The position numbers and the translations under genes were made by a program. This document shows, piece after piece, positions 2,022-41,425 of a stretch of 64,000 nucleotides of DNA (within the stretch, counting starts at the first letter, position 1; each line of letters opens with the position of its first letter). Below the pieces are notes generated by a model. That model was not told the DNA's origin, did not search any database, and saw only the letters and a list, made by a program, of their open reading frames with translations. The DNA comes from Streptosporangium sp. NBC_01495. GTDB taxonomy: Bacteria > Actinomycetota > Actinomycetes > Streptosporangiales > Streptosporangiaceae. Location of the stretch: contig NZ_CP109430.1 in NCBI RefSeq assembly GCF_036250735.1, forward strand, positions 3,844,001-3,908,000, in the 5' to 3' direction.

Positions 2022-2049
2022 TTGCAAAGAAAATGAAAGTGATTATCAT
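2022..2049 (+). promoter_or_regulatory. Predicted promoter of the metallophore-like operon
   Basis: A -35-like TTGCAA (2022-2027) and a -10-like TATCAT (2044-2049) are separated by 16 bp. Transcription would begin near 2056, giving a leader of about 30 nt that carries the AAGGAGG ribosome site at 2073-2079. The elements sit directly under the Zur-like box, so binding there would block RNA polymerase. Confidence 0.6.
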
Positions 2050-2050
2050 T
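2032..2050. promoter_or_regulatory. Zur/Fur-family operator-like palindrome
   Basis: The 15-mer TGAAAGTGATTATCA (2034-2048) matches the actinobacterial Zur box as I recall it, TGAAAATGATTTTCA, at 13 of 15 positions, and is flanked by AA and TT. The site is AT-rich within GC-rich DNA and overlaps the predicted -10 element. This predicts zinc-dependent repression of the ten-gene operon downstream. A generic Fur box is the alternative reading. Confidence 0.65.
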
Positions 2051-2084
2051 CCTTCCATCTGGTCTTGTGATGAAGGAGGCTGTC

Positions 2085-3335
2085 TTGGGGCATCTGCTGA
2101 TGGTCGAGAGCTGGGTGGGATCGATGAGTTCCCTGCTGCCCAGGGCGATCCGGGAGGCGGGTCACCGGTTCACCTTCCTCACCCGCGATCTGCACCACTA
2201 CCTGCGCGCCCCGTCAGGGGCCCTCGCGCACCCCCTGCTCGCCGCCGACAACGTGGTCACCGCGGAGACCAACGACGTCCCGGCCCTGCTGAGGTACGTC
2301 GAGCGGCTGCACGAGGCCCTCGGCTTCGACGGGGTGATCTCCTCGTGCGACTACTACCTCGCGACGGCCGCCCGGCTCGCCGCCCACCTGGGGTTGCCGG
2401 GGGCCGGTCCCGAGGCCGTCGAGCGGGCCTACCGCAAGGACCTCACCCGGGAGGCGCTGCGGAAGGCGGGGCTGCCGGGACCGGCCTTCGCCGTCACGGG
2501 CGGCTGGCCCGAGACGGCCTCGCGCGCCGAGGAGATCGGCTACCCCCTGGTGATCAAGCCGGTCGACCTGTGCGCCGGGATGTACGTGCGCAGAGTGGAC
2601 GACCGGGAGCAGCTTCGCGAGGCCTACCTGGCGCTGGAGGGATTCCCCGTCAACGCGCGACAGCAGCGGCGGCTGCCCGTCGTCCTGCTGGAGGAGGTCC
2701 TGACCGGCCCCGAGATCAGCGTCGAGTCGGTGGCCTTCGAGGGCGAGACCGGCATCGTCGGCATGACCGACAAGAGTCTCACCGGCGAGCCGTGGTTCGT
2801 GGAGAGCGGCCACATGTTCCCGGCCGCGCTCGACCCCGGCACGGTGCGGTCCGCCGGAGAGGCCGCCCTCGCCGCGCTGGCCGCGGTCGGACTGGACCAC
2901 GGCGTGGCCCATACGGAGCTGAAGCTGACCCCGGACGGGCCGAGGGTGGTCGAGATCAATCCCCGGCCCGCGGGAAACCAGATCACCGAGCTGGTCCGCC
3001 GGGTGACGGGCGTGGACATACCGACCGCCTACGCCCAGCTCGCGCTGGGAGAGCGGCCCTGGCTGGCACCCGCCGACACCGGGGTGCGCAGCGCGGCCAT
3101 CGCCTTCCTGCTGCCCCCGGGGCCGGGAACGCTCTCGGCGGTCCACGGCACCCGGCGGCTCGCCGAGGCCGGCGACGTCGTCGAGTGGCAGGTCAAGACC
3201 GCCGGATTCCGCGCGGGGGAGCCGACGAGCAACAACGGCTACCTCGGCCACGTGATGGTCGCGGACACCGCCGGCTCCGGCGCCCGATCCCGGGCCGAGG
3301 AACTCGTGGCCGGCCTGACCGTGGAGTACGCGTGA
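2085..3335 (+). CDS. ATP-grasp amino-acid/peptide ligase
   Basis: This 416-residue ATP-grasp protein resembles L-amino-acid ligases, which join a carboxylate to an amine through an acyl phosphate. Visible elements are the N-terminal Rossmann-like part, the nucleotide-binding [16 protein letters not shown] and the Mg/ATP-binding [11 protein letters not shown] near the C-terminus. The TTG at 2085 is chosen because AAGGAGG (2073-2079) lies 5 nt upstream; an upstream GTG at 2067 or ATG at 2070 would place the start almost on the operator and has no ribosome site. It is the first gene of a strictly coupled operon and overlaps the next by 4 bases. Given the epimerase encoded nearby, a dipeptide or pseudo-dipeptide backbone is a reasonable inference. 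Confidence 0.85.
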
Positions 3336-4141
3336 AGCCGTCGGCCGGGCTCGGCGGGCTGGTCGCGGACGTGCTGGCCTGCCGGGCGGGCTCCGACCCC
3401 GCCCGGCAGCGGATCAGCGTCGGATTCGTCACCAAGCAGGGCGCGCACCACGCCACCCGGGGCCGCGGCTACCGCAACCACGTGATCAGTCTCCGGCTCG
3501 GCGAGGCGGTCGGGTCCTGCGCGGTGGAACCGGACGCGATACCCGACGACGTGGTGTACGACTGCGTGGGCCGCGACGTGGCCACGCTGCTGTCGCACCC
3601 GCTGGCCGCGGTGCGCACGGCCGCCCTGGACGCCTACCTGATGCGCGAGCATCCCCACGACCCGGCCGACGCCGTGGCCGTGCCCGCCGGGTCCTCCCTG
3701 GACAAGTCGATGGCCCGGGCCGCCATGGTGGTGGACCTCCTCCCCGTCCCCGCCGGGGGCCGGGTACTGGTGGTCGGCGTGGTCAACTCGCTCCTGCACC
3801 GCCTGCGGGAACGCGGCCTCCGCTACGTGCCGTGCGACCTGCGGGGCGGCGAGACCGAATGGGGCGAGCCGCACGTCACCGACGCCGGGGCCGCGCTGGA
3901 GGGCTGCGACGCCGTGCTCGCCTCCGGAATGACGCTGGGAAACGGGACCTTCGATCCGCTGCTGCGCCACGCGCGCGACACCGGCAAGCCCCTGGTGCTC
4001 TTCGCCCAGACCGGCAGCGCCGTGCTCCGGCGGTTCGTCGGCGCCGGGGTCACCGCCCTCTCCGCGGAGCCGTACCCGTTCTTCTGGCTGGACGGCGGCC
4101 CGACCCTCATCTACCGCTATCGGTCGGAAGGAGCCAGGTGA
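3332..4141 (+). CDS. DUF364 / putative heavy-metal chelation Rossmann-like protein
   Basis: This 269-residue protein starts at GTG, overlapping the previous stop (GTGA). It has the layout of the DUF364 family: a small N-terminal domain, then a Rossmann-like half with [20 protein letters not shown], a [17 protein letters not shown] segment and a C-terminal [17 protein letters not shown]. Pfam describes the family as putative heavy-metal chelation, but its biochemistry is little known to me. Its place between a ligase and a PLP enzyme suggests an intracellular enzyme or metal/metallophore-handling step. The downstream gene overlaps it by 4 bases. Confidence 0.8.
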
Positions 4142-5193
4142 CCTCCGCACCGGACCTGCTCACCCTGCTCGGCAACACCCCTGTCGCCAGGATCGGGACA
4201 CCGCTGCCGCACGCCCATCCCGGCTTCTGGGCCAAACTCGAAGGCCTCGGCGCGGGCGGCATGAAGGCCAGGGCCGCGGTGTCGATGCTGCTCGGGGCGC
4301 GGGCCAGGAACGAGCTCCGGCCGGGGGCGCCGGTGGTGGAGTCCACCAGCGGCACCCTCGGCGTCGGGCTGGCCTTCGCCGGCCAGGCCCTGGGCCACCC
4401 GGTGGTGCTCGTCGTCGACGCCGAGCTGGAACCGGGCATGCGGGCACTGCTGGCCGCGTACGGGGCACGGCTGGAGACGGTCGACCGGCCGCACCCGGTG
4501 GGCGGGTGGCAGCAGGCCCGGCTGGACCGGCTCGACCGGGTCATGGACCGGCTGCCCGGCGCGTACTGGCCGAACCAGTATCACAACCCCGACAACCGCG
4601 CCGGGTACGCCTCGCTGGCACGCGAGCTGGTCGCCCAGCTGGGCGCGGCGGATGTGCTCGTGTGCAGTGTCGGGACCGGCGGGCACAGCGCCGGCGTGAT
4701 CTCCGAACTCCGCCGGCACTGGCCGGAGGTACGGCTCATCGGGGTCGACACGGTCGGTTCGACGATCTTCGGGCAGCCGGCGCGCCCCCGCCTCATGCGC
4801 GGGCTCGGCAGCAGCATCCACCCGCGCAACGTCGCCTACGAGGAGTTCGACGAGGTGCACTGGGTCGGGCCCGCGGAGGCCGCCGACACCTGCCGGCGCC
4901 TAGCCCGGCACGCCTTCGTCACCGGAGGCTGGAGTACCGGGGCCGTCGCGCTCGTCGCGGCCTGGGCCGCGCGGGTGGAGACGGGCGCGCGGGTGGTGAC
5001 CGTCTTCCCCGACGGGCCGCACCGCTACCTCGACTCGATCTTCAACGACGACTACCGGCGCTCCCGCGGGCTGGCCGGACATCCGGTGACCCGGCCACTG
5101 GAGATCGCCGATTCCGATGCCGTCGAGGTGACGGGCTGGGCGCGCTGCCGCCGGGTCGCCGACCCGCTGCGCGCCGTGGAGGTCCCGGCATGA
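4138..5193 (+). CDS. CysK/SbnA-like PLP-dependent enzyme
   Basis: This 351-residue fold-type II PLP enzyme is related to cysteine synthase. The Schiff-base lysine is K43 in [14 protein letters not shown], the substrate loop is [15 protein letters not shown], and the phosphate-binding [10 protein letters not shown] is present. The STSGTLG loop differs from the SGNTG of true cysteine synthases and is closer to SbnA-type enzymes, which make beta-substituted alanines for metallophores. Likely role: replace the O-acyl or O-phospho group of serine with a nitrogen nucleophile to build a diamino-acid unit. GTG overlaps the previous stop, with AAGGAG about 5 nt upstream. No SbnB-type dehydrogenase lies nearby, so the chemistry must differ from staphyloferrin B. 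Confidence 0.85.
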
Positions 5194-6197
5194 GGCTCGG
5201 CTGGGAGGTGGTCCCGCTGCGGCTGCGCGAGCCCTTCCGCATCTCCCGCTCGGTGATGGCCGCGCGCGACGCCGTCCGGATCGCGCTGCGCCACGACGGG
5301 GTGACCGGGTACGGCGAGATCGTGTCCAGCGCCTACCTCGGGCTGGACGTGCCCCGAATCACGGCCGCGCTGGAGCGGGTGGCCGGTCGGCCCGACCCGG
5401 AGACACTCCTCGCGGAGCTGCCGGACCTGCCGTGCCCGCCGGGGGTGCTCGCCGGCCTCGACGCGGCCCTGCTGGACCTGGCGGGCAAGCGCGACGGGCT
5501 GCCCGTCCACCGGTTCACCGGATCCCCCTCCTGGCGGCCGGTGCCCACCGCGTACACGATCGGGATCTGCGGGCCGGAGCGGGCGGCCGGAGCCGCCCGT
5601 GACCTGCGCGACCGAGGTTTCACCGTGCTGAAGGTCAAGGCCGGGTCGCCCGACCCGGCCGACGACGTGGCGCGGATCGAGGCGGTCAGGAGAGCCGCCC
5701 CCGGAGCGCGCCTGCTGCTGGACCCGAACGGCGCCTGGAGCGCCGAGCGGGCCGTCCGGCTGCTGGAGCGGATGCCCTACGTGGACGCCGTCGAGCAGCC
5801 CATCGCGCCGGGCCGTCCCGACCTGCTCGCCTGGGTCGGCCGGCGGGTATCGATGCCGGTGATAGCCGATGAGGACGCCGGAGGAGTGGCCGAGGTCGAG
5901 CGGCTGGCGGGAGCCGTCCGGGGGGTCAACGTCAAACTCGCCCGGTGCGGCGGCGTGCTGGCCGCGCTCGGCGTCATCGACGCGGCGCGGCGCCACGGCA
6001 TGGACGTCATGCTCGGCTGCCTGGTGTCCAGCTCGCTCGGCATCGCCCCCGCCGCCCACCTGGCCGGGCAGGCCCGCTGGGTCGACCTCGACGGCCATTT
6101 ACTGCTGGAGCGCGACCCCTGGACCGGTATCGGCGGCGAGGACGGCGTGCTGCGGCTCTCCGGCCTCCCCGGCCTCGGCGTGCGGCCGGCGACATGA
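5190..6197 (+). CDS. Enolase-superfamily dipeptide epimerase-like protein
   Basis: This 335-residue muconate-lactonizing subgroup protein resembles L-Ala-D/L-Glu (dipeptide) epimerases. The expected catalytic set is present: KVK in TVLKVKAG, the metal ligand Asp in [10 protein letters not shown], Glu in DAVEQPI, Asp in VIADEDAGG, and the second acid/base lysine in [10 protein letters not shown]. Epimerases of this group invert an alpha carbon of dipeptides. Beside an amino-acid ligase it would set the stereochemistry of a condensed product. ATG overlaps the upstream stop (ATGA). Racemisation of an N-substituted amino acid is the alternative. Confidence 0.85.
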
Positions 6198-7387
6198 GGA
6201 CGTTCCGGTCCTTTCCGCTGTCCGTACGGCTCCTGCTGGTCAACCAGATGGGCGTCAACACCGGTTTCTACCTGCTGATCCCCTATCTCGCCGGCTACCT
6301 CGGCGGAAGCCTGGGCATGTCGGCCGCCGCCGTCGGGGTGGTGCTCGGTGTGCGCAACCTCAGCCAGCAGGGCCTGTTCCTGATCGGCGGGACGGCCTCC
6401 GACCGGCTCGGTGCTCGCACGGTCATCATCGCGGGGTGCGCGCTGCGCGCCGTCGGCTTCGGTCTCTTCGCGTTCGGCGGCTCGCTGCCCGTGCTGCTCG
6501 GCGCCTCGGTCCTGTCCGGTCTGGCCGGGGCGCTGTTCAACCCGGCGGTCCGCTCCTACCTGGCCGTCGAGGCGGGCGACCGCCGCGCGGAGGCGTTCTC
6601 CCTGTTCAACGTGTTCGCCAGCACCGGGGCGCTGCTCGGCCCGCTGCTGGGCGGCGCGTTGCTGCTGGTCGACTTCCGGGTGGCGGCCGTCGCCGCAGCG
6701 CTGATCTTCGCCGGGCTGACGGTGGCACAGGCGCTGACGCTGCCGTCGCGGCCCGTGCCGCCCGGCGGGGGGTCGGTGCTCGCCGACTGGCGGGAGTGCC
6801 TGGCCAACCGCCGGTTCGTCGCCTTCACGCTGGCGCTGAGCGGGATGTTCGCCCTGCAGAACCAGCTCTACCTGATCCTGCCGATGCGGGCCGAGGAGGT
6901 CACCGGCTCCGCCGCCTCGGTGGCGGCGTTGTTCCTGGTCTCCACCGTCGCCACCCTGCTGCTGCAGGTACGGGTCACCCGGTGGCTGCGGGACCGTCTC
7001 AGCGGGGGGACCGCCATCGCGCTCGGCCTGGCGGTGATGGGCGCGGCCTTCCTCGCCCCGTTGCTGCCCGGTCTGACCCCGGTGCTGTTCACCGTGTTCG
7101 GGCTGGCCCTGGGAGTGATGATCGCGCAGCCGTTCGTGCTGGAGCTGATTCCCTCCTTTGGCAGGGAGGGCGTCATCGGTACTTATTTCGGGATGTTCTA
7201 CCTCGCCTCGGGCCTGGTCGCCGCGGTGGGCAACGTCGTCGTGGGCTGGGCGGGCGACACGGCGGGCTGGCTCGCCTGGCCGCTCTGCGCCGCGCTCGGG
7301 CTGGGCTCCGCGATCGCGGTGCGCCGCGCCGGTGTGCCGGAGAGCGGTTCCCCCGGGAACTTCCCGGCGGCGGAGAAGGCGCCGTGA
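6194..7387 (+). CDS. MFS transporter, probable metallophore exporter
   Basis: This 397-residue protein has about 12 membrane helices. The conserved loop between helices 2 and 3 reads GGTASDRLGARTVIIAG, and FNPAVRSYLAVEA lies in the helix 4-5 region, as in MdtH-like drug exporters. It is embedded in a biosynthetic operon after the epimerase (ATGA overlap) and before a methyltransferase, so export of the operon's product is the natural role. The short C-terminal tail is encoded by the first copy of a small duplication discussed at 7358-7421. Confidence 0.85.
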   Translation: MRTFRSFPLSVRLLLVNQMGVNTGFYLLIPYLAGYLGGSLGMSAAAVGVVLGVRNLSQQGLFLIGGTASDRLGARTVIIAGCALRAVGFGLFAFGGSLPVLLGASVLSGLAGALFNPAVRSYLAVEAGDRRAEAFSLFNVFASTGALLGPLLGGALLLVDFRVAAVAAALIFAGLTVAQALTLPSRPVPPGGGSVLADWRECLANRRFVAFTLALSGMFALQNQLYLILPMRAEEVTGSAASVAALFLVSTVATLLLQVRVTRWLRDRLSGGTAIALGLAVMGAAFLAPLLPGLTPVLFTVFGLALGVMIAQPFVLELIPSFGREGVIGTYFGMFYLASGLVAAVGNVVVGWAGDTAGWLAWPLCAALGLGSAIAVRRAGVPESGSPGNFPAAEKAP

Positions 7388-7422
7388 ACTTCCCGGCACC
7401 GGAGAGGACGGCGCGGCCGTGA
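7384..7422 (+). CDS. 12-codon minigene bridging MFS and methyltransferase genes
   Basis: GTG at 7384 overlaps the MFS stop (GTGA) and opens a 12-codon frame (VNFPAPERTARP) whose TGA (7420-7422) overlaps the GTG start of the methyltransferase. It is preceded by GGAGAAGG. The DNA is an imperfect duplicate of the methyltransferase initiation region (7358-7386 versus 7387-7421, both ending GTG and followed by AACTTCC). Most likely a duplication relic that still passes ribosomes along; a functional peptide is unlikely. Confidence 0.4.
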   Translation: MNFPAPERTARP

Positions 7423-8369
7423 ACTTCCTGACCGACAACCCCGAGCTGTACGAGCTGCGGTTCCCCGACCCCGGTCATCTCGCGGCCCGGTTCGCCGACG
7501 ACCTCGCCCGTCGCTTCGGTGGCGGGACCCGGCTGCTCGACATCGGCTGCGGCACCGGCCGCGACGCCGGTCACCTGGCCGGCGACGGCTACACCGTCAC
7601 CGGCTTGGACGTCTCCGAGCCGATGCTCGCCCACGCGCGCGGCCGGTATCCGGGTGTGGAGTTCGTCAACGCCGACATGAGGTCGTTCGACCTCGGCCGC
7701 CGGTTCGACGTGGTCACCTGCCTGGACAGCGCGCTGCTCTACTGCCACGAGAACGCCGACCTGACCGCGTTCCTGTCCCGCTGCCGCGCGCACCTGGCGC
7801 CCGGCGGGCTGCTCGTCGCCGAGATGCGCAACGGCGCGTTCTTCCTCGGCAACACCGAGCTGCTGGAGGGGACGGTCACCGGGTCCGTGCTCTGGGAGGG
7901 CGTGCCGTACACCTCCCGCACCCGCCTGTGGATCGACCATGCCGCCCAGCTGCTGCGCCGGCACCGCACCTGGGAGTGGCCGGGCCGCGCCGGGCCGCTG
8001 CACCAGTATTCGGCCTGGAGGCTGCTCTTCCCCCGGGAACTGGAGTACTTCCTCGACGTCGCCGGCTTCGAGGTACTGGCCCTGTTCGGCGGGCCGGGAC
8101 CGCGCACCCAACCCCCGTGGACCCCCGGTGCGCCGCCGTCGGACGGCCTGTCCGGCGACCGGCTCCATGTCGTGGCCCGCCTGCGTCCCCCGCCCGGCGG
8201 CCCACACGACCGTATCGGGAATCGTCCGGCCGCCTGCCCGGCCGCCTGCCCGGCCGATGTCAGAGCCGATGTCAGAGCCGATGTCAGCGCCGATCGTCCG
8301 GCTGTTCGCGCGGCCGGCCGTACAACCGGCACAACCGATGAAAGGACCCCTCTCCCATGCACTCCCTGA
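7419..8369 (+). CDS. Class I SAM-dependent methyltransferase with repeat-derived tail
   Basis: This 316-residue protein carries the SAM-binding motif LLDIGCGTGRDAGHLAGDG, then GLDVSEPMLAHAR and the motif II-like FDVVTCLDSALLY, as in Methyltransf_25/11 proteins. It would N- or O-methylate an operon intermediate, or act on the exported product. The GTG start has GGAGAGGA about 10 nt upstream. The catalytic domain ends near residue 265. The rest is low complexity, encoded by tandem 12-bp DNA repeats (8253-8294), and it runs 13 bases into the next gene. A spurious read-through tail on a shorter ancestral gene is plausible. Confidence 0.8.
   Translation: MNFLTDNPELYELRFPDPGHLAARFADDLARRFGGGTRLLDIGCGTGRDAGHLAGDGYTVTGLDVSEPMLAHARGRYPGVEFVNADMRSFDLGRRFDVVTCLDSALLYCHENADLTAFLSRCRAHLAPGGLLVAEMRNGAFFLGNTELLEGTVTGSVLWEGVPYTSRTRLWIDHAAQLLRRHRTWEWPGRAGPLHQYSAWRLLFPRELEYFLDVAGFEVLALFGGPGPRTQPPWTPGAPPSDGLSGDRLHVVARLRPPPGGPHDRIGNRPAACPAACPADVRADVRADVSADRPAVRAAGRTTGTTDERTPLPCTP
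8253..8294 (+). repeat. 12-bp tandem repeat in the methyltransferase tail
   Basis: GCCGATGTCAGA occurs at 8253-8264 and 8265-8276, as GCCGATGTCAGC at 8277-8288, and as a fragment at 8289-8294. Two copies of GCCGCCTGCCCG lie just before. Because the unit is four codons long, copy-number changes would keep the reading frame. Confidence 0.8.
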
Positions 8370-9898
8370 ATCGCCGCGGCTTCCTCGGCGCCACCGCCGG
8401 GCTGTCCGCCGCCCTGCTCGCCGGGTGCGGCACCGGTCCCACCGCCGGGGGCACCACGGCGGGCAAGCCTCGCGCGGGGGGCCGGCTGCGTGTCGCGTTC
8501 GCGGGGGGCGGAGCCCAGGAGACCCTGGACCCGCACCTGTCCAACCTGTTCGTCGAGGCGTCCCGGTCCAAGGCGTTGTTCGACAAGCTCGCCGACTACG
8601 GTCCCGACCTGTCGGTCGTGCCGCGCCTCGCCGAGCGCTGGGAACCCTCCGCCGACCTCACCACGTGGCGGGTCACCCTGCGCCGGGCGACCTTCCACGA
8701 CGGCAGGCCGGTGCGCGCCGCCGACGTCCTCTACAGCTACGCCAGGATCGCCGACCCCGCCCGCGCCTTCCGCGCCAGGTCCACCCTGGCGGTCATCGAC
8801 CTGGCCGCCAGCAGGGCCGTCGACGACCGCACGGTCGAGTTCGCGCTCAGGCAGCCGTTCGCCGAGTTCCCCAACGTGCTGGCCGCCTTCGGCGTGTTCG
8901 TCGTCCCCGAGGGCGCCGAGGACTTCACCAAACCGATCGGGTCCGGCCCGTTCACCTTCGGCTCCTTTGAACCTGGCCGCTCCCTGCTGCTCAAGCGCAA
9001 CCCCGACTACTGGGAGGGCGCGCCCCATGTCGACGAGCTGCAGTACCTGATCGCCAACGAGGAGTCGGCCCGGGTCAACGCCCTGCTGGGCGGACAGGCC
9101 GACTACGCCCACGACATCACCGCGACCACCGCCAGGACCTACCGGGGCAACGACCGCCTGGCCGTCACCCGGCTCACCAACAGCGGCATGCAGGCGTTCG
9201 CCATGAAACTCGACCGCCCGCCCTTCGACGACCGGAACCTGCGCGAGGCGATGTTCCTGCTGGCCGACCGGAGGGAACTGGTCGACACCGTGCTGGCCGG
9301 CGCCGGGCAGATCGGCAACGACCTCTTCGGCAGGGGCTACCAGTACTACGCCGAGGAGATCCCGCAGCGTGCCCGTGACCTGGACAAGGCCAGGTGGCTG
9401 GTGGAGAAGGCCGGTGCGAAGGGGCTGAAGGTGCGGCTCGACACATCGGCGGCGGCCAGCGGCTTCGTCGAATCGTCGAGCGTCTTCGCCGACCAGATGC
9501 GCCAGGCCGGTCTCGACGTCGAGGTCGCGGTGGGCGACAAGGACACCTACTGGAAGGACGTCCTCGACAAGGGCACGCTGTGCTGCTTCCGGTCCGGCGC
9601 GATGCCCATCGAGTCCCACTTCGCGCAGCGTCTGCTCAGCACGTCCACCACCAACATCACGAAGTGGAAGCGCCCGGAGTTCGACGAGCTCTACGCCAAG
9701 GCCGTCTCGCTCGCCGACGAGAAGGCGCGCCGCGACGTGTACGCCGAGATGCAGCGCGCCCAGCACGCCGAGGGCGGCTACCTCGTCTGGGGTTTCGCCG
9801 ACTGGCTCGTCGCGACCGCGCCCGGGGTGGGGGGCGTCGCCGACGCCCCGGCCAACACCCTCGACTGGGCCCGGTTCGACAAAGTGTGGCTGGCTTGA
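8357..9898 (+). CDS. ABC transporter substrate-binding lipoprotein, family 5 (NikA/CntA/DppA type)
   Basis: This 513-residue binding protein has a twin-arginine-like lipoprotein signal: NRRGFLG, then a hydrophobic stretch ending in the lipobox LLAGC (Cys about residue 18), so it should be anchored outside the membrane. The mature part shows family 5 traits: RLAERWEPSADLTTWRVTL, FHDGRPVRAADVLYSY, and GSGPFTFGSFEPGRSLLLKRNPDYW. This family binds peptides, nickel chelates and opine metallophores. Within a Zur-box operon with biosynthetic and export genes, binding the metal-loaded metallophore is the best inference. ATG is preceded by GAAAGGA. Confidence 0.88.
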   Translation: MHSLNRRGFLGATAGLSAALLAGCGTGPTAGGTTAGKPRAGGRLRVAFAGGGAQETLDPHLSNLFVEASRSKALFDKLADYGPDLSVVPRLAERWEPSADLTTWRVTLRRATFHDGRPVRAADVLYSYARIADPARAFRARSTLAVIDLAASRAVDDRTVEFALRQPFAEFPNVLAAFGVFVVPEGAEDFTKPIGSGPFTFGSFEPGRSLLLKRNPDYWEGAPHVDELQYLIANEESARVNALLGGQADYAHDITATTARTYRGNDRLAVTRLTNSGMQAFAMKLDRPPFDDRNLREAMFLLADRRELVDTVLAGAGQIGNDLFGRGYQYYAEEIPQRARDLDKARWLVEKAGAKGLKVRLDTSAAASGFVESSSVFADQMRQAGLDVEVAVGDKDTYWKDVLDKGTLCCFRSGAMPIESHFAQRLLSTSTTNITKWKRPEFDELYAKAVSLADEKARRDVYAEMQRAQHAEGGYLVWGFADWLVATAPGVGGVADAPANTLDWARFDKVWLA

Positions 9899-10899
9899 CG
9901 CACCTCCGACTCGCCCCGTCGTCCTGGTACTCCCGCTCCGGAGGCCGGAGGAGCCTGCCCGGGTACGCCGCACGGCGCCTGCTGCTCGGCCTGGCCCAGG
10001 TCGTGGCGGTCACCGCACTGGTGTTCGCCCTCACCGAGGCACTGCCGGGAGACGCCGCCGTGGTGCTGGCCGGGGACACGCCCGACCCGGTGCGGATCGA
10101 GCGGATCCGCCAGGAGCTGGGGCTCGACCGGCCCGCGCCGGTCCGCTATGCCGAATGGCTGCTCGGCCTGTTCCGCGGCGACCTCGGCACGTCGCTGACG
10201 GCCGGGCGCCCGGTCACCGGTTTCCTCGCCGACGCCGGCGGGCCGACCCTCCAGCTCGCCGCGATCACCCTGCTGCTCCTGGTGCCGCTGGCGGTGGCCG
10301 CGGGCGTCGTCGCCGCGATCCGCGAGGGCCGGTTGCTCGACCGGATCCTCACCTCGGCCGGCATCGCCCTGTACTCGGTGCCGGAGTTCGCCCTCGCCGT
10401 GCTTCTGGTCGCGCTGTTCGCCCTGCGGCTCGGCTGGTTCCCGCCCACCGCGGTGGGCGTCGGCCCGAACCTGCTCGCACAGCCGGCCGTGCTGGTGCTT
10501 CCCCTCCTGGTCCTGCTCGCCCGGCCGATCTGCTCGATCAGCAGGCTGGTCAGGGCCGGGATGATCGACGCTCTGAGCTCCGAGTACGTCCGCCACGCCC
10601 GCAGGCTCGGGCTCTCGGGCCGGAGAGTCGTCGTGGCGCACGCCCTGCCCAACGCGGTGGCGCCGGCCGTGCAGCAGCTCGCCAGGACCACCGACTGGCT
10701 GCTCGGCGGTGTGATCACCGTGGAGGCCGTCTTCGTCATCCCGGGCCTCGGCACCTCCCTGGTGAGCGCGGTCTCCGCCCGCGACATTCCGGTGATCCAG
10801 GGACTCGCCCTGGTCTTCGCGGCCACCACCGTGGTCGTGAACCTCGCCGCCGACGTCGCCGCGTTCCGTCTCGCCCCGCGCGCGGCGGGTGCGACATGA
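9895..10899 (+). CDS. ABC transporter permease (NikB/DppB type)
   Basis: This 334-residue BPD_transp_1 permease has the N-terminal RRLLLGLAQVVAVTALVFAL helix, the DPVRIERIRQELGLDRP loop typical of DppB/NikB, and the ATPase-contacting EAA-like loop around EYVRHARRLGLSGRRVV with the following ALPNAVAP. No ATG or GTG fits; TTG at 9895 overlaps the previous stop (TTGA), consistent with translational coupling. It forms the channel with the next permease. Confidence 0.85.
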   Translation: MTHLRLAPSSWYSRSGGRRSLPGYAARRLLLGLAQVVAVTALVFALTEALPGDAAVVLAGDTPDPVRIERIRQELGLDRPAPVRYAEWLLGLFRGDLGTSLTAGRPVTGFLADAGGPTLQLAAITLLLLVPLAVAAGVVAAIREGRLLDRILTSAGIALYSVPEFALAVLLVALFALRLGWFPPTAVGVGPNLLAQPAVLVLPLLVLLARPICSISRLVRAGMIDALSSEYVRHARRLGLSGRRVVVAHALPNAVAPAVQQLARTTDWLLGGVITVEAVFVIPGLGTSLVSAVSARDIPVIQGLALVFAATTVVVNLAADVAAFRLAPRAAGAT

Positions 10900-11729
10900 G
10901 GCCGGGACGGGAACCGGGGCCGGAGCGGGGATCTGAGCGGGGATCCGGGCCGGTGCCGAGGTGGGGGTCGGGCGGGGTGCTGCTGGGCGTGCCGCTGGTG
11001 ATCGCCCTCGCCGGTCCGTGGTTCGCGGGCGAGCCGGGTCTTCGCGGTGTCCCGTTCGGCTCCGGCCCCTTCCTGGGCACGGACTTCGTCGGCCGGGACG
11101 TGTGGCGGCAGGTGCTTCTCGGCGGTCGTACGGTCGTGGTGGTCGCCCTGGCCGCCACCGCCCTGGCCTTCCTGGTGGGCACGCCGCTGGGGCTGCTGGC
11201 CGCGATGACCCGGCGGCGGTGGCTCGACGAGCTGCTGATGAGACCTCTGGACCTGCTGCTGGCCGTCCCCTCGCTGTTGATGCTCATCCTGCTCGCCGCC
11301 ACCGTTCCGCCAGGACCCGTCACCCTGGTCGTCATCGTCGCGGTGATCAGCCTGCCGGAGGTGGCCCGGATATCCCGCGCGGCGGCCCTGGAGATCGCCG
11401 CCAGGCCCGCCATGGAGGCGATGCGGCTCCAGGGTGAGAGCTGGTGGCGCCGGGCGGTCGGCTACGTGGGCCGGTCGATGCTCCGTACCCTCCTGGCCGA
11501 CCTGGGCGTCCGCGTCGTCGGCGCGCTCTACCTTGTCGCGACGGCGAGTTTCCTGGGCGTCGGCGTCTCCCCGGACTCCGGCGACTGGGCGGTGATGGTC
11601 GACCGCAACCGGACCGGCATGTTCCTTCAGCCCTGGGCGGTGCTCGTCCCGGCGCTGCTGATCGTGGCGCTGTCCGTCGGGCTGAACCTGCTCTTCGACG
11701 GGGTGCGGCGCAGGGGGGAGATCGCGTGA
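10896..11729 (+). CDS. ABC transporter permease (NikC/DppC type)
   Basis: This 277-residue partner permease has the DppC/NikC signature FLGTDFVGRDVWRQVLLGGR, five to six helices and the TASFLGVGVSPDSGDWAVMV motif. The coupling loop is around RISRAAALEIAARPAMEAMR. Its N-terminus carries a Gly/Pro/Arg-rich extension of about 25 residues. ATG overlaps the upstream stop, and the ATPase gene overlaps its own stop by 4 bases. Confidence 0.85.
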   Translation: MRPGREPGPERGSERGSGPVPRWGSGGVLLGVPLVIALAGPWFAGEPGLRGVPFGSGPFLGTDFVGRDVWRQVLLGGRTVVVVALAATALAFLVGTPLGLLAAMTRRRWLDELLMRPLDLLLAVPSLLMLILLAATVPPGPVTLVVIVAVISLPEVARISRAAALEIAARPAMEAMRLQGESWWRRAVGYVGRSMLRTLLADLGVRVVGALYLVATASFLGVGVSPDSGDWAVMVDRNRTGMFLQPWAVLVPALLIVALSVGLNLLFDGVRRRGEIA

Positions 11730-13498
11730 TCCGCGTTGTGGGACTGCGCGCCGAAGCCGGTGGCGGCACGCTGGTCGACGGCGTCTCCTTCCAGCTCGCA
11801 CCCGGCCGGGTGCTCGCCCTGGTCGGGGCCTCGGGCAGTGGCAAGACCACCATCGGGCGGGCGCTGCTCGGCGAGCACGCGCCCGGGGTGGTCCTGTCGG
11901 GGACGGTCGAGGTGGCCGGGACGGTGGGCTACCTGCCGCAGCACCCCGCGTCCGCGCTCAATCCGGTCCGCCGCGCCGGCGCGGTGCTGCGCGAGGTCGC
12001 CGGGCGCCACGCGCCTGGTGGGGCCGTGCCTGGCGGGGCCGTGATGAACGGATCCGTGGCGGACCGGATCTCGTCCGTGCTCCGCCGCGTCGACCTGCCC
12101 GCCGGTGAAGGGGTGGCGCGCCGCTACCCGCACGAGTTCTCCGGCGGGCAGCAGCAACGCCTGGTGCTCGCCCAGACGCTGCTGACGGCGCCGTCGGCGA
12201 TCGTGGCGGACGAGCCCACCACCGGCCAGGACGCCATCACCAAGCGGGAGGTCGTGGACGCACTGGCGGACCTCGTACGGCAGGGCATCGCGCTGGTCCT
12301 GCTCAGCCACGACCTGGACGTGGTGCGCACGCTCGCCGACCATGTCGTCGTACTGCGCGGCGGCCGGGCGGTGGAGAGCGGTCCGGCCGGGGAGGTACTC
12401 GCCCGGCCCCGGCACGACTACACCCGACGCCTGCTCGCCGCCCGGCTCCCGGCGGTCCCGCCCTCCGGTCCGGTGGTTCCGTCTCCCGGTGCGATGAGCT
12501 CGTCCACCGGTCAGGAAGGGAGTCCGTCCTCCGGGGAGGTGGTTCCGTCTCCCGGTGCGGTGAACTCGTCCACGGGCCGGGGATGGGGCCTGTTCTCCGG
12601 TGAGGCGGGCCGGCCTTCCCGGCAGGCGGCGTCACCCCGGAACGCCGTGCCGGGGCCGGTCCGGCTCGACGTCGTCGGACTGACGGCGAGGCACCGCTCG
12701 GTGCCGGTGCTTCACGACGTGTCGCTGCGGGTGGCCGCCGGGCGGTGCCTGGCGCTGGTCGGGCGTTCGGGAAGCGGGAAGACGACCCTCGCGCGCTGCG
12801 TCGCGGGGCTGCACGAGCCCGCGAGGGGAGCGGTGCTGCTCGACGGGAGACCGCTGGCGGGGGCACTGTCACGGCGGCGGCGCGAGGACGTGGCCCGCGT
12901 TCAGTATGTCTTCCAGGACGCGCACGCCTCCTTCGACCCGAACCGGACGGTAGCCGACCAGGTGAGCCGCACCGCCGTGCGGCTGCGCGGCCTGAGGTCC
13001 GGTGCGGCGCGGGACGCGGCGCTGGAGATGCTCGAACGCGTCGGGCTCGGCGCCGCGTCGGCGGCCCGCCGACCTACCGGGCTGTCCGGAGGGGAGCTCC
13101 AGCGCGCGGCGCTCGCCCGCGCGCTGCTCGCCTCCCCCGAGGTCCTTGTTTGCGACGAGATCACTTCGGGGCTGGACACGATCACCCAGGCCGGGGTGCT
13201 CGACCTGCTCGACGAACTGCGCCGAGAGTCCGGGCTGACCCTCGTACTGATCAGCCACGACATGGGTGTCGTGGCGCGGCTGGCGGACCACGTCGTGATC
13301 CTCTCAGGGGGGAGGGTCGTGGAGGAGGGGGCCGAGGCGTTCTGGTGGTCACCGGCGACGTCGGCCCACGACGCCCGCGACGGTGCCCACGAGTACTTCC
13401 AGACCTCGCACTCCGAGACCTCGCACTCCGAGACCCCGCCGAGCGGCGACACCCGGCCCGGCAGGGCGGTGCGGACGGAGGGCCGGGCGGGTGGCTGA
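11726..13498 (+). CDS. Fused double ABC ATPase (NikD-NikE / DppD-DppF fusion)
   Basis: This 590-residue protein carries both nucleotide-binding domains of the importer. Domain 1 has Walker A GASGSGKTT, signature FSGGQQQRL and Walker B AIVADEPTTGQD, followed by LLSHDLD. Domain 2 has GRSGSGKTTL, LSGGELQRA and VLVCDEITSGLD, followed by LISHDMG. The linker (about residues 250-310) repeats VVPSPGA...SSTG, and the C-terminus repeats TSHSE, both of tandem-repeat origin. GTG overlaps the previous stop. Single-chain fusions of the two ATPases are known in this class. It closes the operon, which then meets a convergent gene. Confidence 0.87.
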   Translation: MIRVVGLRAEAGGGTLVDGVSFQLAPGRVLALVGASGSGKTTIGRALLGEHAPGVVLSGTVEVAGTVGYLPQHPASALNPVRRAGAVLREVAGRHAPGGAVPGGAVMNGSVADRISSVLRRVDLPAGEGVARRYPHEFSGGQQQRLVLAQTLLTAPSAIVADEPTTGQDAITKREVVDALADLVRQGIALVLLSHDLDVVRTLADHVVVLRGGRAVESGPAGEVLARPRHDYTRRLLAARLPAVPPSGPVVPSPGAMSSSTGQEGSPSSGEVVPSPGAVNSSTGRGWGLFSGEAGRPSRQAASPRNAVPGPVRLDVVGLTARHRSVPVLHDVSLRVAAGRCLALVGRSGSGKTTLARCVAGLHEPARGAVLLDGRPLAGALSRRRREDVARVQYVFQDAHASFDPNRTVADQVSRTAVRLRGLRSGAARDAALEMLERVGLGAASAARRPTGLSGGELQRAALARALLASPEVLVCDEITSGLDTITQAGVLDLLDELRRESGLTLVLISHDMGVVARLADHVVILSGGRVVEEGAEAFWWSPATSAHDARDGAHEYFQTSHSETSHSETPPSGDTRPGRAVRTEGRAGG

Positions 13499-34323: not shown

Positions 34324-35145
34324 TCAGGAGCCGCCCGCGGTGACGTGTGAGGCGTGCGCGGGTGAGGCGACGTGGAGGTCGTGGCCGGAGCTGAGCCGCT
34401 GGGCGGTGGCGGCGAGCCGGGCGGTCAGCTCGGGGAGCCGGTCGTCGCCCAGCCGTACGGCCGGGCCCTGGATGGCCAGCGCGGCCAGCACGTTGCCGTG
34501 GCCGTCGTGGACCGGCACGGCCACGGCCCGGACCCCGGCGACGCGCTCCTCGAAGTTGATGGCCGTGCCCCGGGCGCGGATGCGGTCGAGCTCGGTCTCC
34601 AGCCCGGCGCGGGTGGTGATCGTGGTGTCGGTGTAGCGGGCGAAGGGCTCCTCCATGCCCACCCTGGGATCCCCGAAGGCGAGCAGGACCTTGCCCATCG
34701 CGCACACGTGGATCGGGTTGCGCTGGCCGGGCTCCTGCTCGTAGCGGAGCGGCTGCCGCGAGGGGACCTGGAGCAGCACGGCCACCTCGTCACCGATGCG
34801 CACGCCCAGATTCACGGCCTCCCCGGTCAGGTCGCGCAGGGCCTCCAGCTCGGGGAGCATCGTGGTCGCGCCGAGGCGCTCCAGGGCCAGTCGGCCCAGC
34901 GTGGCGGTGGTGATCCCGAGATGGTAGCGCTCGGTCACCGGATCCTGGCCGAGCATCCCCGCCGCGTGCAGGGCGCGGACGATGCGGTGGGCGGTGCTGA
35001 CCGACAGGTGGAGGCGCTGAGCCACCTCGGTGGGGGAGAGGGTCACCGACCGCTCGAACGCGCGCAGCACCGCGATGGCGCGTTCGATCGCCTGGGTGCC
35101 CCTGCGGGTGGCGTCTTCAAGCTTCGGCTTCATCAGGTCCACCAT
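34324..35145 (-). CDS. IclR-family transcriptional regulator
   Basis: This 273-residue protein has the winged helix AIERAIAVLRAFERSVTLSP, RLHLSVSTAHRIVRALHAAG, and the IclR effector domain with NPIHVCAMGKVLLAFGDPRV and INFEERVAGVRAVAVPVHDG. ATG at 35145 or 35133 (GGTGGA 5 nt upstream of the latter). It is divergent from the ABC/monooxygenase operon and is the obvious candidate for its control. Confidence 0.88.
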   Translation of the reverse strand: MVDLMKPKLEDATRRGTQAIERAIAVLRAFERSVTLSPTEVAQRLHLSVSTAHRIVRALHAAGMLGQDPVTERYHLGITTATLGRLALERLGATTMLPELEALRDLTGEAVNLGVRIGDEVAVLLQVPSRQPLRYEQEPGQRNPIHVCAMGKVLLAFGDPRVGMEEPFARYTDTTITTRAGLETELDRIRARGTAINFEERVAGVRAVAVPVHDGHGNVLAALAIQGPAVRLGDDRLPELTARLAATAQRLSSGHDLHVASPAHASHVTAGGS

Positions 35146-35179
35146 CCCAGCTTAGGGTGAAAAGCTATTCCCTACACTC

Positions 35180-35208
35180 TTGACGGGTTTTTGGGGTATT
35201 ACTACTAT
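35180..35208 (+). promoter_or_regulatory. Strong sigma-70-type promoter of the ABC/monooxygenase operon
   Basis: TTGACG (35180-35185) and TACTAT (35203-35208) with a 17-bp spacer, unusually consensus-like for this genome. The upstream AT-rich AAAAGCTATTCC (35160-35171), between the promoter and the IclR gene, is a plausible IclR site. Confidence 0.65.
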
Positions 35209-35266
35209 GTGGAATGAAGATCTTGCCATGTGGGATCTGGCTCGTTTCCCTGAGAGGACCCCCGTC

Positions 35267-36799
35267 ATGCCTGTCCGTCGGCTTCTGCGACCGCTGGCCC
35301 TGCTCGTCTCGGTCGTTCTCGCGTTGACCGCCTGTGGCGGCGGCACCCAGTCGGCCACCACCGGCTCCGGCAGCGAGGGAGGCACCCTCAAGTGGGGCTG
35401 GACTCTTCCCACAACGTGGGATCCGGTCACCTCCAGCGCCGGTAACGACGTGAACGCCCTGTCCCTCGTCTACAGCGCCGTCACCCGTCTGGACGACACG
35501 GGCGACGCCGTCTCCGGCCTGGCCACCGCCTGGAAGTACGCCGACGGGGGAAAGAGCGTCACCTTCACCCTCAGGGCCGGGCTGACCTTCTCCGACGGCT
35601 CCCCGCTAGACGCCGAGGCCGTGCGCAGGAGCGTCCTGCGCGGCCGGGACCAGAAGGACTCGCTGATCGCCTCCCAGCTGCGCGGGGTGAAGGACGTCGA
35701 GGTCGTCTCGCCCACCGAGTTCAGGATCCTGCTCGACCGGCCCGACTACCAGATCCCCAACCTGCTCGCGGGGAAGACCGGGATGATCGTCAACCCCCGG
35801 GCCTTCGAGGCGGACGCCAAGGCCGTCGGCGCCAAGCCCGCGGGCGCCGGGCCCTTCACCCTCACTCAGCTCGTTCCCGGCTCGCACGCCAACCTGGACC
35901 GCAACCCGTCCTACTACGACGTCGCGAACATCCACCTGGCCAAATTCGAGCTGAAGACCGTCTCCGAGCCCGCCACCGTCGTCGCCGGGCTCCAGTCCGG
36001 CCAGTTCGACGTCGCGATGCTGCCCGCCGCCCAGATCGACGCGGCCAAGGCGGCCGGGCTGAAGGTCGACCTCATCCCGTCGCTGACCGTCCGGGTCCTG
36101 GACGTCAACAACAGGATCGCGCCGTTCGACAACCCCAAGGTCACCGAGGCGCTGAAGTACGCGGTCGACCGCGCGGCCCTGCTGGAGACCTCCGGCTTCG
36201 GCGTCGGCGAGGTCAACACGCAGCCGTTCCCCAAGGGCCACCTCGGCTACAACCCCGGGCTGGAGAACCTCTACCCGTACGACCCCGCCAAGGCCAGGAA
36301 GCTGCTCGCCGAGGCCGGGTTCCCCAACGGCGTCGACATCCCGCTGACCACCGCCACCCCCGAGGGCCTGCCCGAGCAGGTCCAGGAGCAGCTCAAGGCC
36401 GCCGGGATCAGGACCACCATCAAGCTCATCGCCCCGGCCCAGCACACCCAGCTCGTCTACGTCCAGCACAACGTGGCCCTCGCCCCCGACGGCTTCGTCG
36501 GCCGCGAGTCGCCGCTGCAGGCGCTCGGCGTCGTCTACGGGCCCGAGGGCCTGATGAACCCCGGCCGCAACACGCCCAAGGCACTGCTGGAGCAGTTCGA
36601 CAGGATCCGCACCACGCCGCCGGACGACCCCGGCTACGCCAAGGCCGTCCAGGACGCGGTCGCCATCGGCGTCAAGGAGCTGCCCAACGTCTGGCTGTTC
36701 ACCACGCCGCGCATCTTCGCCCGCAGCCCCAGGGTCTCCGAGCTTCCCGCCAACCTCGCGGTGCAGCGCTTCGACGGCGTCCGGGTGGCGAACCCGTGA
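35267..36799 (+). CDS. ABC transporter substrate-binding lipoprotein, family 5
   Basis: This 510-residue protein has a lipoprotein signal MPVRRLLRPLALLVSVVLAL ending in the lipobox LTAC, a Gly/Ser linker, and family 5 motifs: LKWGWTLPTTWDPVTSSAGN, TFSDGSPLDAEAVRRSVLRG and GAGPFTLTQLVPGSHANLDR. ATG at 35267 is chosen for GAGAGGA about 8 nt upstream. It delivers its ligand to the permease pair downstream. The ligand is probably the molecule attacked by the flavin monooxygenase of the same operon rather than a peptide. Confidence 0.87.
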   Translation: MPVRRLLRPLALLVSVVLALTACGGGTQSATTGSGSEGGTLKWGWTLPTTWDPVTSSAGNDVNALSLVYSAVTRLDDTGDAVSGLATAWKYADGGKSVTFTLRAGLTFSDGSPLDAEAVRRSVLRGRDQKDSLIASQLRGVKDVEVVSPTEFRILLDRPDYQIPNLLAGKTGMIVNPRAFEADAKAVGAKPAGAGPFTLTQLVPGSHANLDRNPSYYDVANIHLAKFELKTVSEPATVVAGLQSGQFDVAMLPAAQIDAAKAAGLKVDLIPSLTVRVLDVNNRIAPFDNPKVTEALKYAVDRAALLETSGFGVGEVNTQPFPKGHLGYNPGLENLYPYDPAKARKLLAEAGFPNGVDIPLTTATPEGLPEQVQEQLKAAGIRTTIKLIAPAQHTQLVYVQHNVALAPDGFVGRESPLQALGVVYGPEGLMNPGRNTPKALLEQFDRIRTTPPDDPGYAKAVQDAVAIGVKELPNVWLFTTPRIFARSPRVSELPANLAVQRFDGVRVANP

Positions 36800-37878
36800 C
36801 CGCGCTGGGATCACGCGCCCCCGCGACCGCGCGGGGAGCCCGCGAAGACAGGGAGAACAGGGGAGCCGGGGAGGGCGGAGAGATCCGCCGGCCCGTCGTG
36901 ACGGCGGGCCCGGCCCCCCGCACCCGTCGTACGGCGGGGAGGGCCCGGTGGCGCGCGGTGGCGCGCGGGTCGGCCGCCCTGGTGGTCGTGGCGCTCGCCT
37001 CCACCTTCATCACCTACGGGCTGGGCGCGCTCGGCGACGCCAACCCGGCGGCGGCCGTACTGGGGGCGACCGCGACCCCCGAGGACATCGCCAGGATGAG
37101 CCACGAGTTCGGGCTCGACCGTCCGTTCCTGGAGCAGTACGTCACCTGGCTGGGCAACGCCCTCACCGGAGACCTGGGCCGCTCCTGGTTCACCCAGATC
37201 CCGGTCGCCGAGAGCATCGCGCAGCGTCTCCCCGTCGACCTGTCGATCACCGGCCTGGCCGTGCTCATCGCGGTCGTCGCCGGGGGCGCGGCCGGGATCG
37301 GGGCGGCGGTGAGCAACGGCGGCAGGTTCGACCGGATCGTGACCGCCGTCTGCGCGGTCGCCTCCACCCTGCCGGCGTTCGTCGTCGGCATCGGGCTGAT
37401 CGTGCTCTTCGCCGTGATCGTCCCGGTGTTCCCCTCCGGCGGGTACGTGCCGTTCTCCCAGGATCCCGTCCAATGGCTGCGGCTGATCACCCTCCCGGCG
37501 ATCGCGCTCAGCCTCGACGCCGCCGCCGACCTCGCCAGGCAGCTCCGTACCGGCCTGGTGGCCGCGCTACGGGAGAACTACGTGACCGGCGCGGTGGTCC
37601 GGGGACTCCCGGCCCGGCGGGTGCTGTTCCGGCACGCGCTGCGCAACGCCGCAGGCCCGGCGCTCACCGTGCTCGGGGTGCACATCCCCCGCCTGATCGG
37701 CGGCGCGGTGGTCACCGAGGCGGTGTTCGCCCTGCCGGGTCTCGGCCAGCTGACCGGCGAGGCCGCGCTCAAGCACGACGTCCCGGTGATCCAGGGCGCG
37801 CTGCTCGCCACCATCGCGCTGGTGCTCGTCTCCAACGTCACCGTCAACGCGGCCGTCGCCAGGCTGCGGGGTGCGTGA
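36796..37878 (+). CDS. ABC transporter permease (DppB/NikB type)
   Basis: This 360-residue permease has a long basic N-terminal extension (about 55 residues, Arg/Gly/Ala-rich) before the first helix (ALVVVALASTFITYGLGALG). TPEDIARMSHEFGLDRPFLE is the DppB periplasmic loop, and ALRENYVTGAVVRGLPARRV with ALRNAAGPALTVLG is the coupling region. GTG overlaps the previous stop (GTGA). Confidence 0.86.
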   Translation: MTALGSRAPATARGAREDRENRGAGEGGEIRRPVVTAGPAPRTRRTAGRARWRAVARGSAALVVVALASTFITYGLGALGDANPAAAVLGATATPEDIARMSHEFGLDRPFLEQYVTWLGNALTGDLGRSWFTQIPVAESIAQRLPVDLSITGLAVLIAVVAGGAAGIGAAVSNGGRFDRIVTAVCAVASTLPAFVVGIGLIVLFAVIVPVFPSGGYVPFSQDPVQWLRLITLPAIALSLDAAADLARQLRTGLVAALRENYVTGAVVRGLPARRVLFRHALRNAAGPALTVLGVHIPRLIGGAVVTEAVFALPGLGQLTGEAALKHDVPVIQGALLATIALVLVSNVTVNAAVARLRGA

Positions 37879-38975: not shown

Positions 38976-39981
38976 AGCGCTGTTGAGCGTGCGCGACCTG
39001 CGCGTGACCGTCTCGGGAGGCCGGGCCGAGGCCGTGCGCGGCGTCTCCTTCGAGGTCGCCCCCGGCGAGGCCGTCGGCCTGGTCGGTGAGTCGGGCAGCG
39101 GCAAGACCCTCACCTGCCGCGCGGTCCTCGGCGCTCTGGCTCCCGGCTGTTCGGTGAGTTCGGGCGAGATCGAGTTCGGTGGCCACGACCTGACGGGAGC
39201 GAGCCGGAGGGAGTGGCTCGGGATCCGCGGGAGCAGGATCGGCGCGGTCTTCCAGGACCCGGCCTCCTACCTGAACCCGTCCCTGCCGGTCGGCGGCCAG
39301 CTCGCCGAGGTGCTGCGGGTCAAGCTCGGACTGCGACGGCGCGCGGCCCGCGATCGCGCCGTCGAACTGCTGGACGCGATGGGCCTGCGCGACCCGGCCC
39401 GTGTCCACGGCCAGTATCCGCACGAGCTGTCCGGCGGCATGCTCCAGCGTGTCCTGATCGCCATCGCCGTCTCCTGCGACCCCGAACTGCTGATCGCCGA
39501 CGAGGCCACCACCGCGCTCGACGTGACCGTCCAGGCAGAGGTGCTCGAACTCCTCGCCCGGCTGCGCGCCGAGCGCGGCCTGTCGATCGTGTGCGTCTCC
39601 CATGACCTGGCGGTGATCGCGGCGCTCTGCGACCGGATCATCGTCTTCTACGGGGGCGAGATCGTCGAGTCGGGGCCGACGCGGGAGGTCCTGGCCCGGC
39701 CCGGACACCCCTACACCGAGGCCCTGCTGCGGGTCGCCTCGGTCGGCGACTGGGGCAGGCGGACCCTGGAGGTCATCCCCGGTCAGCCGCCACCAGCGGG
39801 CGCCTCCCTGCCGGGCTGCCGCTTCGCCGCCCGCTGCGCCTTCGCCGAAGAGGCCTGCTCGGCGGCTCCCGTTCCCCTCACCGCCCATCCCGGCGGGCGC
39901 GAGGTCCGCTGCCTGCGCCCGGAGGCGGCGGGCCGCGACGCGGTGACCGCCGGCGCCGGAGCATGGGGGACGGACCTGTGA
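38965..39981 (+). CDS. ABC transporter ATP-binding protein (OppD/DppD type)
   Basis: This 338-residue ATPase has Walker A GLVGESGSGKTLTCRA, signature PHELSGGMLQRVLIA, Walker B ELLIADEATTALD, and the switch His in VCVSHDLAV. The C-terminal oligopeptide/dipeptide extension ends with the Cys-rich CRFAARCAFAEEACSAAP motif that can bind an iron-sulfur cluster in DppD proteins. ATG lies 11 bases inside the previous gene with GAGGAG just upstream. Confidence 0.88.
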   Translation: MPAEALLSVRDLRVTVSGGRAEAVRGVSFEVAPGEAVGLVGESGSGKTLTCRAVLGALAPGCSVSSGEIEFGGHDLTGASRREWLGIRGSRIGAVFQDPASYLNPSLPVGGQLAEVLRVKLGLRRRAARDRAVELLDAMGLRDPARVHGQYPHELSGGMLQRVLIAIAVSCDPELLIADEATTALDVTVQAEVLELLARLRAERGLSIVCVSHDLAVIAALCDRIIVFYGGEIVESGPTREVLARPGHPYTEALLRVASVGDWGRRTLEVIPGQPPPAGASLPGCRFAARCAFAEEACSAAPVPLTAHPGGREVRCLRPEAAGRDAVTAGAGAWGTDL

Positions 39982-41414: not shown

Positions 41415-41425
41415 GGAGCACACGC

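Follow-up and report, generated by a model that had tools for sequence, protein, structure and literature searches.

What is the function of ten consecutive genes in which enzymes of a biosynthetic type stand beside an exporter and a complete importer, behind a putative box for the zinc regulator Zur? We addressed this question in a 64,000-nucleotide stretch of Streptosporangium sp. NBC_01495 (contig NZ_CP109430.1, positions 3,844,001 to 3,908,000; hereafter the window, at its full length), where these genes span positions 2085 to 13498. From sequence comparison, we consider it likely that they form a zinc-metallophore operon repressed by Zur and independent of any non-ribosomal peptide synthetase (NRPS). 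This proposal is carried by the gene content, the conserved gene order, the conserved catalytic residues, and the box with its zinc context.

A ten-gene operon behind a Zur-like box

All ten open reading frames lie on the + strand of the window, which has a G+C content of 71% in a host genome of 11.1 Mb. With domains called by Pfam, the features are:

2033..2049, + strand: putative Zur box ATGAAAGTGATTATCAT, from motif matches in the same genome and in relatives and from the literature motif (PMC5472717, accessible parts)
2085..3335, + strand: ATP-grasp enzyme of L-amino-acid-ligase type (PF13535, 64 bits; LAL_C2 PF18603, 53 bits)
3332..4141, + strand: DUF364 protein (PF04016)
4138..5193, + strand: fold-type II pyridoxal-phosphate (PLP) enzyme, SbnA/cysteine-synthase-like (PF00291, 185 bits)
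5190..6197, + strand: enolase-superfamily enzyme, dipeptide-epimerase type (PF13378, 136 bits)
6194..7387, + strand: major facilitator superfamily (MFS) transporter, probable exporter (PF07690, 103 bits)
7419..8369, + strand: S-adenosylmethionine-dependent class I methyltransferase, probably an N-methyltransferase (PF13649, 73 bits)
8357..9898, + strand: family-5 solute-binding lipoprotein with twin-arginine motif and lipobox (PF00496, 259 bits)
9886..10899, + strand: importer permease 1 (PF00528, 99.7 bits)
10896..11729, + strand: importer permease 2 (PF00528, 80.6 bits)
11726..13498, + strand: fused two-domain importer ATPase, NikD/NikE- and CntD/CntF-like (PF00005 in two stretches, 178 bits)

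A first-pass annotation of this DNA had described ten genes in one direction with mostly stop-start overlaps, and this layout was recovered, with every reading frame at its place and strand and eight of the nine junctions overlapping. The overlap is 4 nt at the ligase/DUF364, DUF364/PLP enzyme, PLP enzyme/epimerase, epimerase/MFS, permease 1/permease 2 and permease 2/ATPase junctions, and 13 nt, with the starts chosen here, at the methyltransferase/binding protein and binding protein/permease 1 junctions; only the MFS and methyltransferase genes are separated by a gap (31 nt). One gene start had to be moved. The ligase gene most likely begins at TTG 2085 rather than at 2067 or 2070, because AAGGAGG at 2073-2079 lies five bases upstream and the N-terminus is then as in most homologues; 2070 is also possible, and the ligase residues given below are numbered from there.

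The box at 2033-2049 ends 35 bp before this likely start codon and ATGAAAGTGATTATCAT fits the S. coelicolor Zur motif tGaNNatSatNNtCa, as given in the accessible parts of PMC5472717. When TGAAARTGATTWTCATT was searched with up to 2 mismatches, no other match was found in the 11.1 Mb genome. We also used a degenerate motif, ATGAWARYSRTTWTCAT, built from the operon box and the box of a ribosomal L33 gene. Exact matches were obtained at two genome sites, one preceding the operon and the other preceding a pair of genes that by eye encode a Cys-less L33 and an L31B-type protein, in this order. Allowing 2 mismatches raised the number of places to 13. Six of these match on both strands, and four of the six precede the operon, the L33-L31B genes, an L28 gene with a downstream Cys-less S14 gene (named by eye), and a znuA-zur locus. 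Behind the last box stand znuA (ZnuA, 247 bits), an ATP-binding cassette (ABC) ATPase gene and a Fur-family gene (FUR, 104 bits). Four Fur-family proteins are encoded in the genome. For the genes near the other two sites (L057, L066), we know of no link to zinc. The L066 palindrome, at contig position 10110725, is about 20 bp before a gene that by eye encodes a CooC/MinD-like P-loop ATPase and may be another target of Zur.

The association with zinc-free ribosomal proteins was also observed across genomes: among ten genomes including this one, a site within 3 mismatches in the 350 bp upstream was present at 10 of 12 Cys-less L33 genes and at 0 of 10 CxxC L33 genes. The operon, znuA and zinc-free ribosomal genes of one genome thus have a promoter box in common, and the Zur-like box proposed in the first-pass annotation is, on motif and context, convincing as a Zur box that Zur would bind.

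Conservation of the cassette and its proteins

A class-wide search of 394 genomes with the DUF364 protein gave matches in 33: ten, counting the own genome, have 64-100% identity, another 20 have 41-50%, and the remaining 3 matches are weak. The cassette appears patchy, since the one other listed genome of the same genus had no DUF364 match. The nine other high-identity loci all contain the ten genes in the same order (9/9), and in each of them (9/9) the 400 bp upstream include a Zur-like site that differs from a 15-base core at no more than 3 positions.

We then scanned a species-genome collection with the ATP-grasp alignment and obtained 291 related stretches; the following counts cover the best 80, of which two (L070, L114) are probably the same as two of the nine high-identity loci (L035, L039) and not independent of them. 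All ten genes were found in the same order in 77 of the 80 loci, in genera including Streptoalloteichus, Lentzea, Micromonospora, Saccharopolyspora, Nonomuraea and Streptomyces. When gene starts were set to resemble those of the window, the median gap in the relatives was -4 nt at six of the nine junctions. L077 has no methyltransferase gene and L138 is cut by a contig end. In L091 (Nonomuraea roseoviolacea), the ligase and DUF364 genes are followed by those of permease 2, the ATPase and the binding protein, most of the middle of the cassette being gone, apparently through loss or rearrangement.

Upstream of the cassette, a Zur-like site within 3 mismatches was kept in 73 of 77 loci (one with no mismatch, 12 with one, 37 with two and 23 with three), leaving out L094, L107 and L137, which have fewer than 260 upstream bases. 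By comparison, random windows taken from these loci gave a site in 0 of 385 cases, a lenient control as they are mostly coding and G+C-richer than the upstream regions, and dinucleotide-preserving shuffles of the upstream regions (mean 67.5% G+C), the stricter control, gave one in 1 of 1540. Together with the boxes elsewhere in the genome, this makes the zinc link considerably stronger than a single box would.

The cassette could also serve another metal (nickel, cobalt, copper or iron), with Zur control being only partial. The importer models lie nearest to nickel permeases and NikD/NikE, and opine metallophores carry several metals. Against this stands the near-universal Zur-type box upstream of the cassette. 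In addition, no match to an iron-box consensus with 5 or fewer mismatches was found in the window's first 14 kb or in eight of the nine high-identity relatives, and the ninth (L042) had a single weak 5-mismatch match. We therefore find another metal unlikely as the main cargo.

Concerning the individual proteins, named families were judged by NCBIfam equivalog cut-offs, which none of the families among the matches listed for the ten proteins passed (for the ATPase, the best 25 of 196 families). The ligase combines an ATP-grasp domain and an LAL C-terminal domain with the expected ATP/metal residues, K163, E295, N297 and R299 being conserved in 81 of 81 sequences, and its nearest solved structure is 3vot, the L-amino acid ligase BL00235. 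BacD, the alanine-anticapsin ligase, comes after it, which could point to a zinc-controlled small antimetabolite of the bacilysin kind, an ATP-grasp dipeptide released by the MFS exporter, in place of a metallophore. However, the conserved block includes a dedicated importer of four proteins (its two ATPase domains being fused into one), for which an antibiotic producer has no need, and the Zur context also speaks against this alternative, which we hold to be very unlikely.

The DUF364 protein reached the PF04016 gathering score and has an enolase-N-like plus Rossmann-like fold. In the PLP enzyme, K43 is conserved in 80 of 80 sequences. SbnA is both its best-scoring named family and its nearest solved structure (5d84), with a glycine at the serine position of the SbnA VSTTGS loop. 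It reached 250.2 bits against the SbnA model TIGR03945, under the cut-off of 349.95; one cassette relative scored 252.6 bits and a paralogue in the same genome 236.4 bits. Of the earlier label SbnA-like, the resemblance (250 bits) is retained and the membership (cut-off 350) is not.

The epimerase has the motifs known for dipeptide epimerases (KxK, D/E/D metal ligands, second catalytic K, DxD), and K148/K150, D178, E202, D227, K249 and D299/D301 are conserved in 79 of 79 sequences; against the DgcA racemase model it scored 220 bits (cut-off 400). The best solved relatives of the methyltransferase include amino-sugar N,N-dimethyltransferases and glycine N-methyltransferase, so that it probably acts on nitrogen. 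The protein of the window has 316 residues, with a C-terminal extension (window 8200-8369) of short repeats ADVRADVRADVSAD; in the relatives the length is at most 300 residues in 76 of 77, with a median of 264.

Each arginine of the twin-arginine motif of the binding lipoprotein is conserved in 76 of 79 sequences, and the lipobox C24 in 78 of 79. Its scores against the nickel and staphylopine binding-protein models are weak (132 of 600 and 64 of 800 bits, respectively). The fused ATPase reached 305 bits with NikE (cut-off 332.6) and 298 with CntF (cut-off 385), and the matches to the CntA, CntC, CntD and CntF models were all under cut-off. The importer, earlier described as NikA/CntA-type, is complete and of Opp/Nik type, with the correction that its two ATPases form one protein.

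These scores bear on a further explanation, zinc-regulated peptide salvage, in which the importer would take up cell-wall peptides or oligopeptides, the enzymes would process them, and zinc control would reflect a demand for metal-bound peptides. The weak scores of the binding protein would fit such a role. Dipeptide epimerases with Opp-type importers are also typical of murein-peptide recycling. For the epimerase, this is also described in the accessible parts of PMC13338154. However, no peptidase domain was found in the ten proteins; the ligase, the PLP synthase-type enzyme, the methyltransferase and the MFS exporter point to synthesis, and the genes form one conserved block in 77 of 80 loci. 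We consider salvage very unlikely.

Proposed pathway and the PLP-DUF364 pair

For the metallophore operon, we propose that zinc shortage would release Zur from the box at 2033-2049 and allow a single transcript for all ten proteins. The PLP enzyme would carry out a beta-substitution of an activated serine with the amine of an amino acid, the reaction of SbnA. The resulting 2-amino-2-carboxyethyl amine is the classic ethylenediamine-carboxylate chelating unit. The DUF364 protein may act on the substrate or the product of this step, a placement whose sole basis is its constant pairing with the PLP enzyme. The ATP-grasp enzyme would then attach an amino acid by amide-bond formation, the epimerase would invert the alpha-carbon of the terminal residue in the dipeptide-like compound, and the methyltransferase would N-methylate the epimerised compound. 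The product would leave by the MFS transporter, and the lipoprotein, the two permeases and the fused ATPase would re-import its zinc complex, following the staphylopine model. An ATP-grasp ligase and a dipeptide epimerase working in tandem are established in an engineered pathway (PMC13338154, accessible parts). Since the two probably also form a tandem here, the product is likely a dipeptide-like amino-polycarboxylate that is N-methylated and has an inverted centre. The make-export-reimport logic put forward in the first-pass annotation is supported by an operon holding synthesis enzymes, an MFS exporter and an Opp/Nik importer, and its remark that the enzyme set is unfamiliar is supported as well.

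Several observations weigh against this proposal. No upstream site within 3 mismatches was found in 4 of the 77 loci, and the site of L075, counted among the 73, is 285 bp away and may be a chance match. Among the Cys-less L33 genes, the paralogues L158 and L159 have no box, and the L149 site lies 267 bp away on the opposite strand. We also count here the control in which the ATGAWARYSRTTWTCAT pattern was read backwards, with one genome hit versus 19. Zur can also control genes unrelated to metallophores, and the murein-recycling context of epimerases with Opp importers has been mentioned above, as has the score of the PLP enzyme below the SbnA cut-off. Amide nitrogens are poor ligands, and thus it is not obvious that the ligase step serves to build a chelator. 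Finally, the closest relative of the PLP enzyme in its own genome adjoins a CmtR-type sensor and a cation diffusion facilitator (CDF) pump, not a metallophore cluster.

This relative is 63% identical over 339 residues to the cassette enzyme and is followed by an MFS gene whose product is 45% identical to that of the cassette. The pair (within positions 7336-11987 of stretch L181, which spans contig positions 9456500-9476400) lies beside the CDF efflux gene and the gene of the CmtR-type metal sensor, which scored 170 bits (cut-off 150). Of 26 loci, 24 retain the PLP-MFS pair (L185 and L186 appear identical); CmtR and CDF neighbors were seen, within 1.5 kb flanks, in the own genome only. No Zur-like site was found at the 25 pairs examined, the best having 5 mismatches; L186, near-identical in hits to L185, was left out. 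We infer that this "make and export" pair is the older arrangement and was recruited by the zincophore cassette; the pair itself is possibly a metal-detoxification exporter pair.

The 20 loci with DUF364 proteins at 41-50% identity (L044-L054, L213-L221; hereafter group B) revealed a second cluster type. DUF364 and PLP enzyme genes were present in 20 of 20 loci, the PLP enzyme being 26-33% identical to that of the operon (11 loci). An MFS gene of either searched type was found in 19 of 20 loci and a second, different methyltransferase in 15 of 20 (MTS-type in L044, below Pfam's reach in L051). At the cut-off used, importer genes were FecCD-type in 15 of 20 and FecB-type in 14 of 20; in L052, the importer is Opp-type and a PhyH dioxygenase is present. 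When the whole length of each locus (12-19.5 kb) was considered, a Zur-like site was found in 18 of 20 within 2 mismatches and in 19 of 20 within 3, compared to 0 of 20 after the loci had been shuffled a single time by two-base blocks. The exceptions at 2 mismatches are L054 and L218, the latter lacking a site even at 3, which adds to the weaker results. Of 11 group B loci searched for iron boxes, L048 alone gave a match, at its far end. When the group B PLP enzyme was compared with the own genome, only the cassette's PLP enzyme matched at E 1e-30 or better (5 of 21 candidates scored).

What the two zinc-linked systems have in common is therefore the PLP-DUF364 pair and not the whole cassette. 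That this pair forms the catalytic core of an unrecognised class of actinobacterial zincophores, with DUF364 as a dedicated chelator-building enzyme next to the PLP step, is in our view an evenly balanced proposition. We give equal weight for and against to at least two builds of that class, the ten-gene cassette with ligase, epimerase, methyltransferase and Opp-type importer, and one with a different methyltransferase and usually a FecBCD-type importer.

Elsewhere in the window, a further importer operon of Opp/Nik type occupies positions 34324-42517, flanked upstream by an IclR-type regulator gene and downstream by a luciferase-like monooxygenase gene (named by eye). At 45462-52238, carboxylate-amine ligase-like, asparagine-synthase-like and peptidase-like genes stand in a row and resemble an N-acetylglutaminylglutamine amide locus (named by eye).

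Relation to known metallophore systems

If the proposed function is correct, a zinc-scavenging small molecule would belong to many actinobacteria, given the 291 stretches that matched in one genome collection, and a zincophore made without NRPS or opine chemistry would widen the picture of bacterial competition for zinc. For the uncharacterised DUF364 family, the operon would supply a partner enzyme, a physiological context and a simple culture condition under which its substrate could be sought, and genome mining would gain a signature, a PLP enzyme and DUF364 behind a Zur box. In the open-access literature of PubMed Central (PMC), we found no description of the cassette or of a link between DUF364 and zinc metallophores; a prior description is possible, for instance in the subscription literature, which lies outside this search. 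The terms ATP-grasp, DUF364, EDDS and epimerase do not appear in the accessible parts of an opine-zincophore survey (PMC7438024). What is new here is that the DUF364 and PLP pair also forms the core of another cluster type, built differently and Zur-linked.

A structure is available for one DUF364 protein, Dhaf4260 (PDB 3l5o), which is 14% identical to that of the operon; the accessible parts of its description mention neither a PLP-enzyme pairing nor Zur boxes, both of which were seen here.

The staphylopine and pseudopaline (cnt) systems resemble the operon in holding biosynthesis genes and an exporter in one metal-responsive operon, with an Opp/Nik-type ABC importer in the case of staphylopine, and both cnt and the operon would include a stereo-inversion, by the CntK racemase and the epimerase, respectively. 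Of the opine-zincophore components, the operon has the Opp/Nik-type importer and the exporter, and lacks CntM and a CntL-type synthase. As proposed in the first-pass annotation, no opine dehydrogenase, nicotianamine-synthase, SbnB or NRPS (condensation, adenylation, carrier) domain was found in the ten proteins (Pfam, E 0.001); instead of CntL and CntM, the operon encodes the ligase, the PLP enzyme, DUF364 and the epimerase.

Like the operon as proposed, the [S,S]-ethylenediaminedisuccinic acid (EDDS) system of Amycolatopsis japonicum (aes) is NRPS-free and under Zur control, and a serine-derived amine is plausible in both. EDDS contains neither an amide bond nor a methyl group, so that a ligase, an epimerase and a methyltransferase would have no role there. 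The Zur control of EDDS is described in the accessible parts of PMC9252823 and PMC6103462, and for EDHA, also an aminopolycarboxylate, a response to iron and a set of four genes (AesA-D) are described (PMC10702961, accessible parts); the comparison of the operon with both was made on descriptions and not on Aes sequences. Unlike the SbnA/SbnB system of staphyloferrin B, the operon has a PLP enzyme below the SbnA cut-off and no SbnB-type gene, the one SbnB-type match of the genome (PF02423) being 2.7 Mb away. Coelibactin of S. coelicolor, a Zur-controlled actinobacterial zincophore candidate (PMC5472717, accessible parts), is a non-ribosomal peptide (PMC3430247, accessible parts), in contrast to the NRPS-free operon. 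Overall, the operon would work like the cnt and EDDS systems, yet it falls outside the opine-type, SbnA/SbnB and NRPS-zincophore groups.

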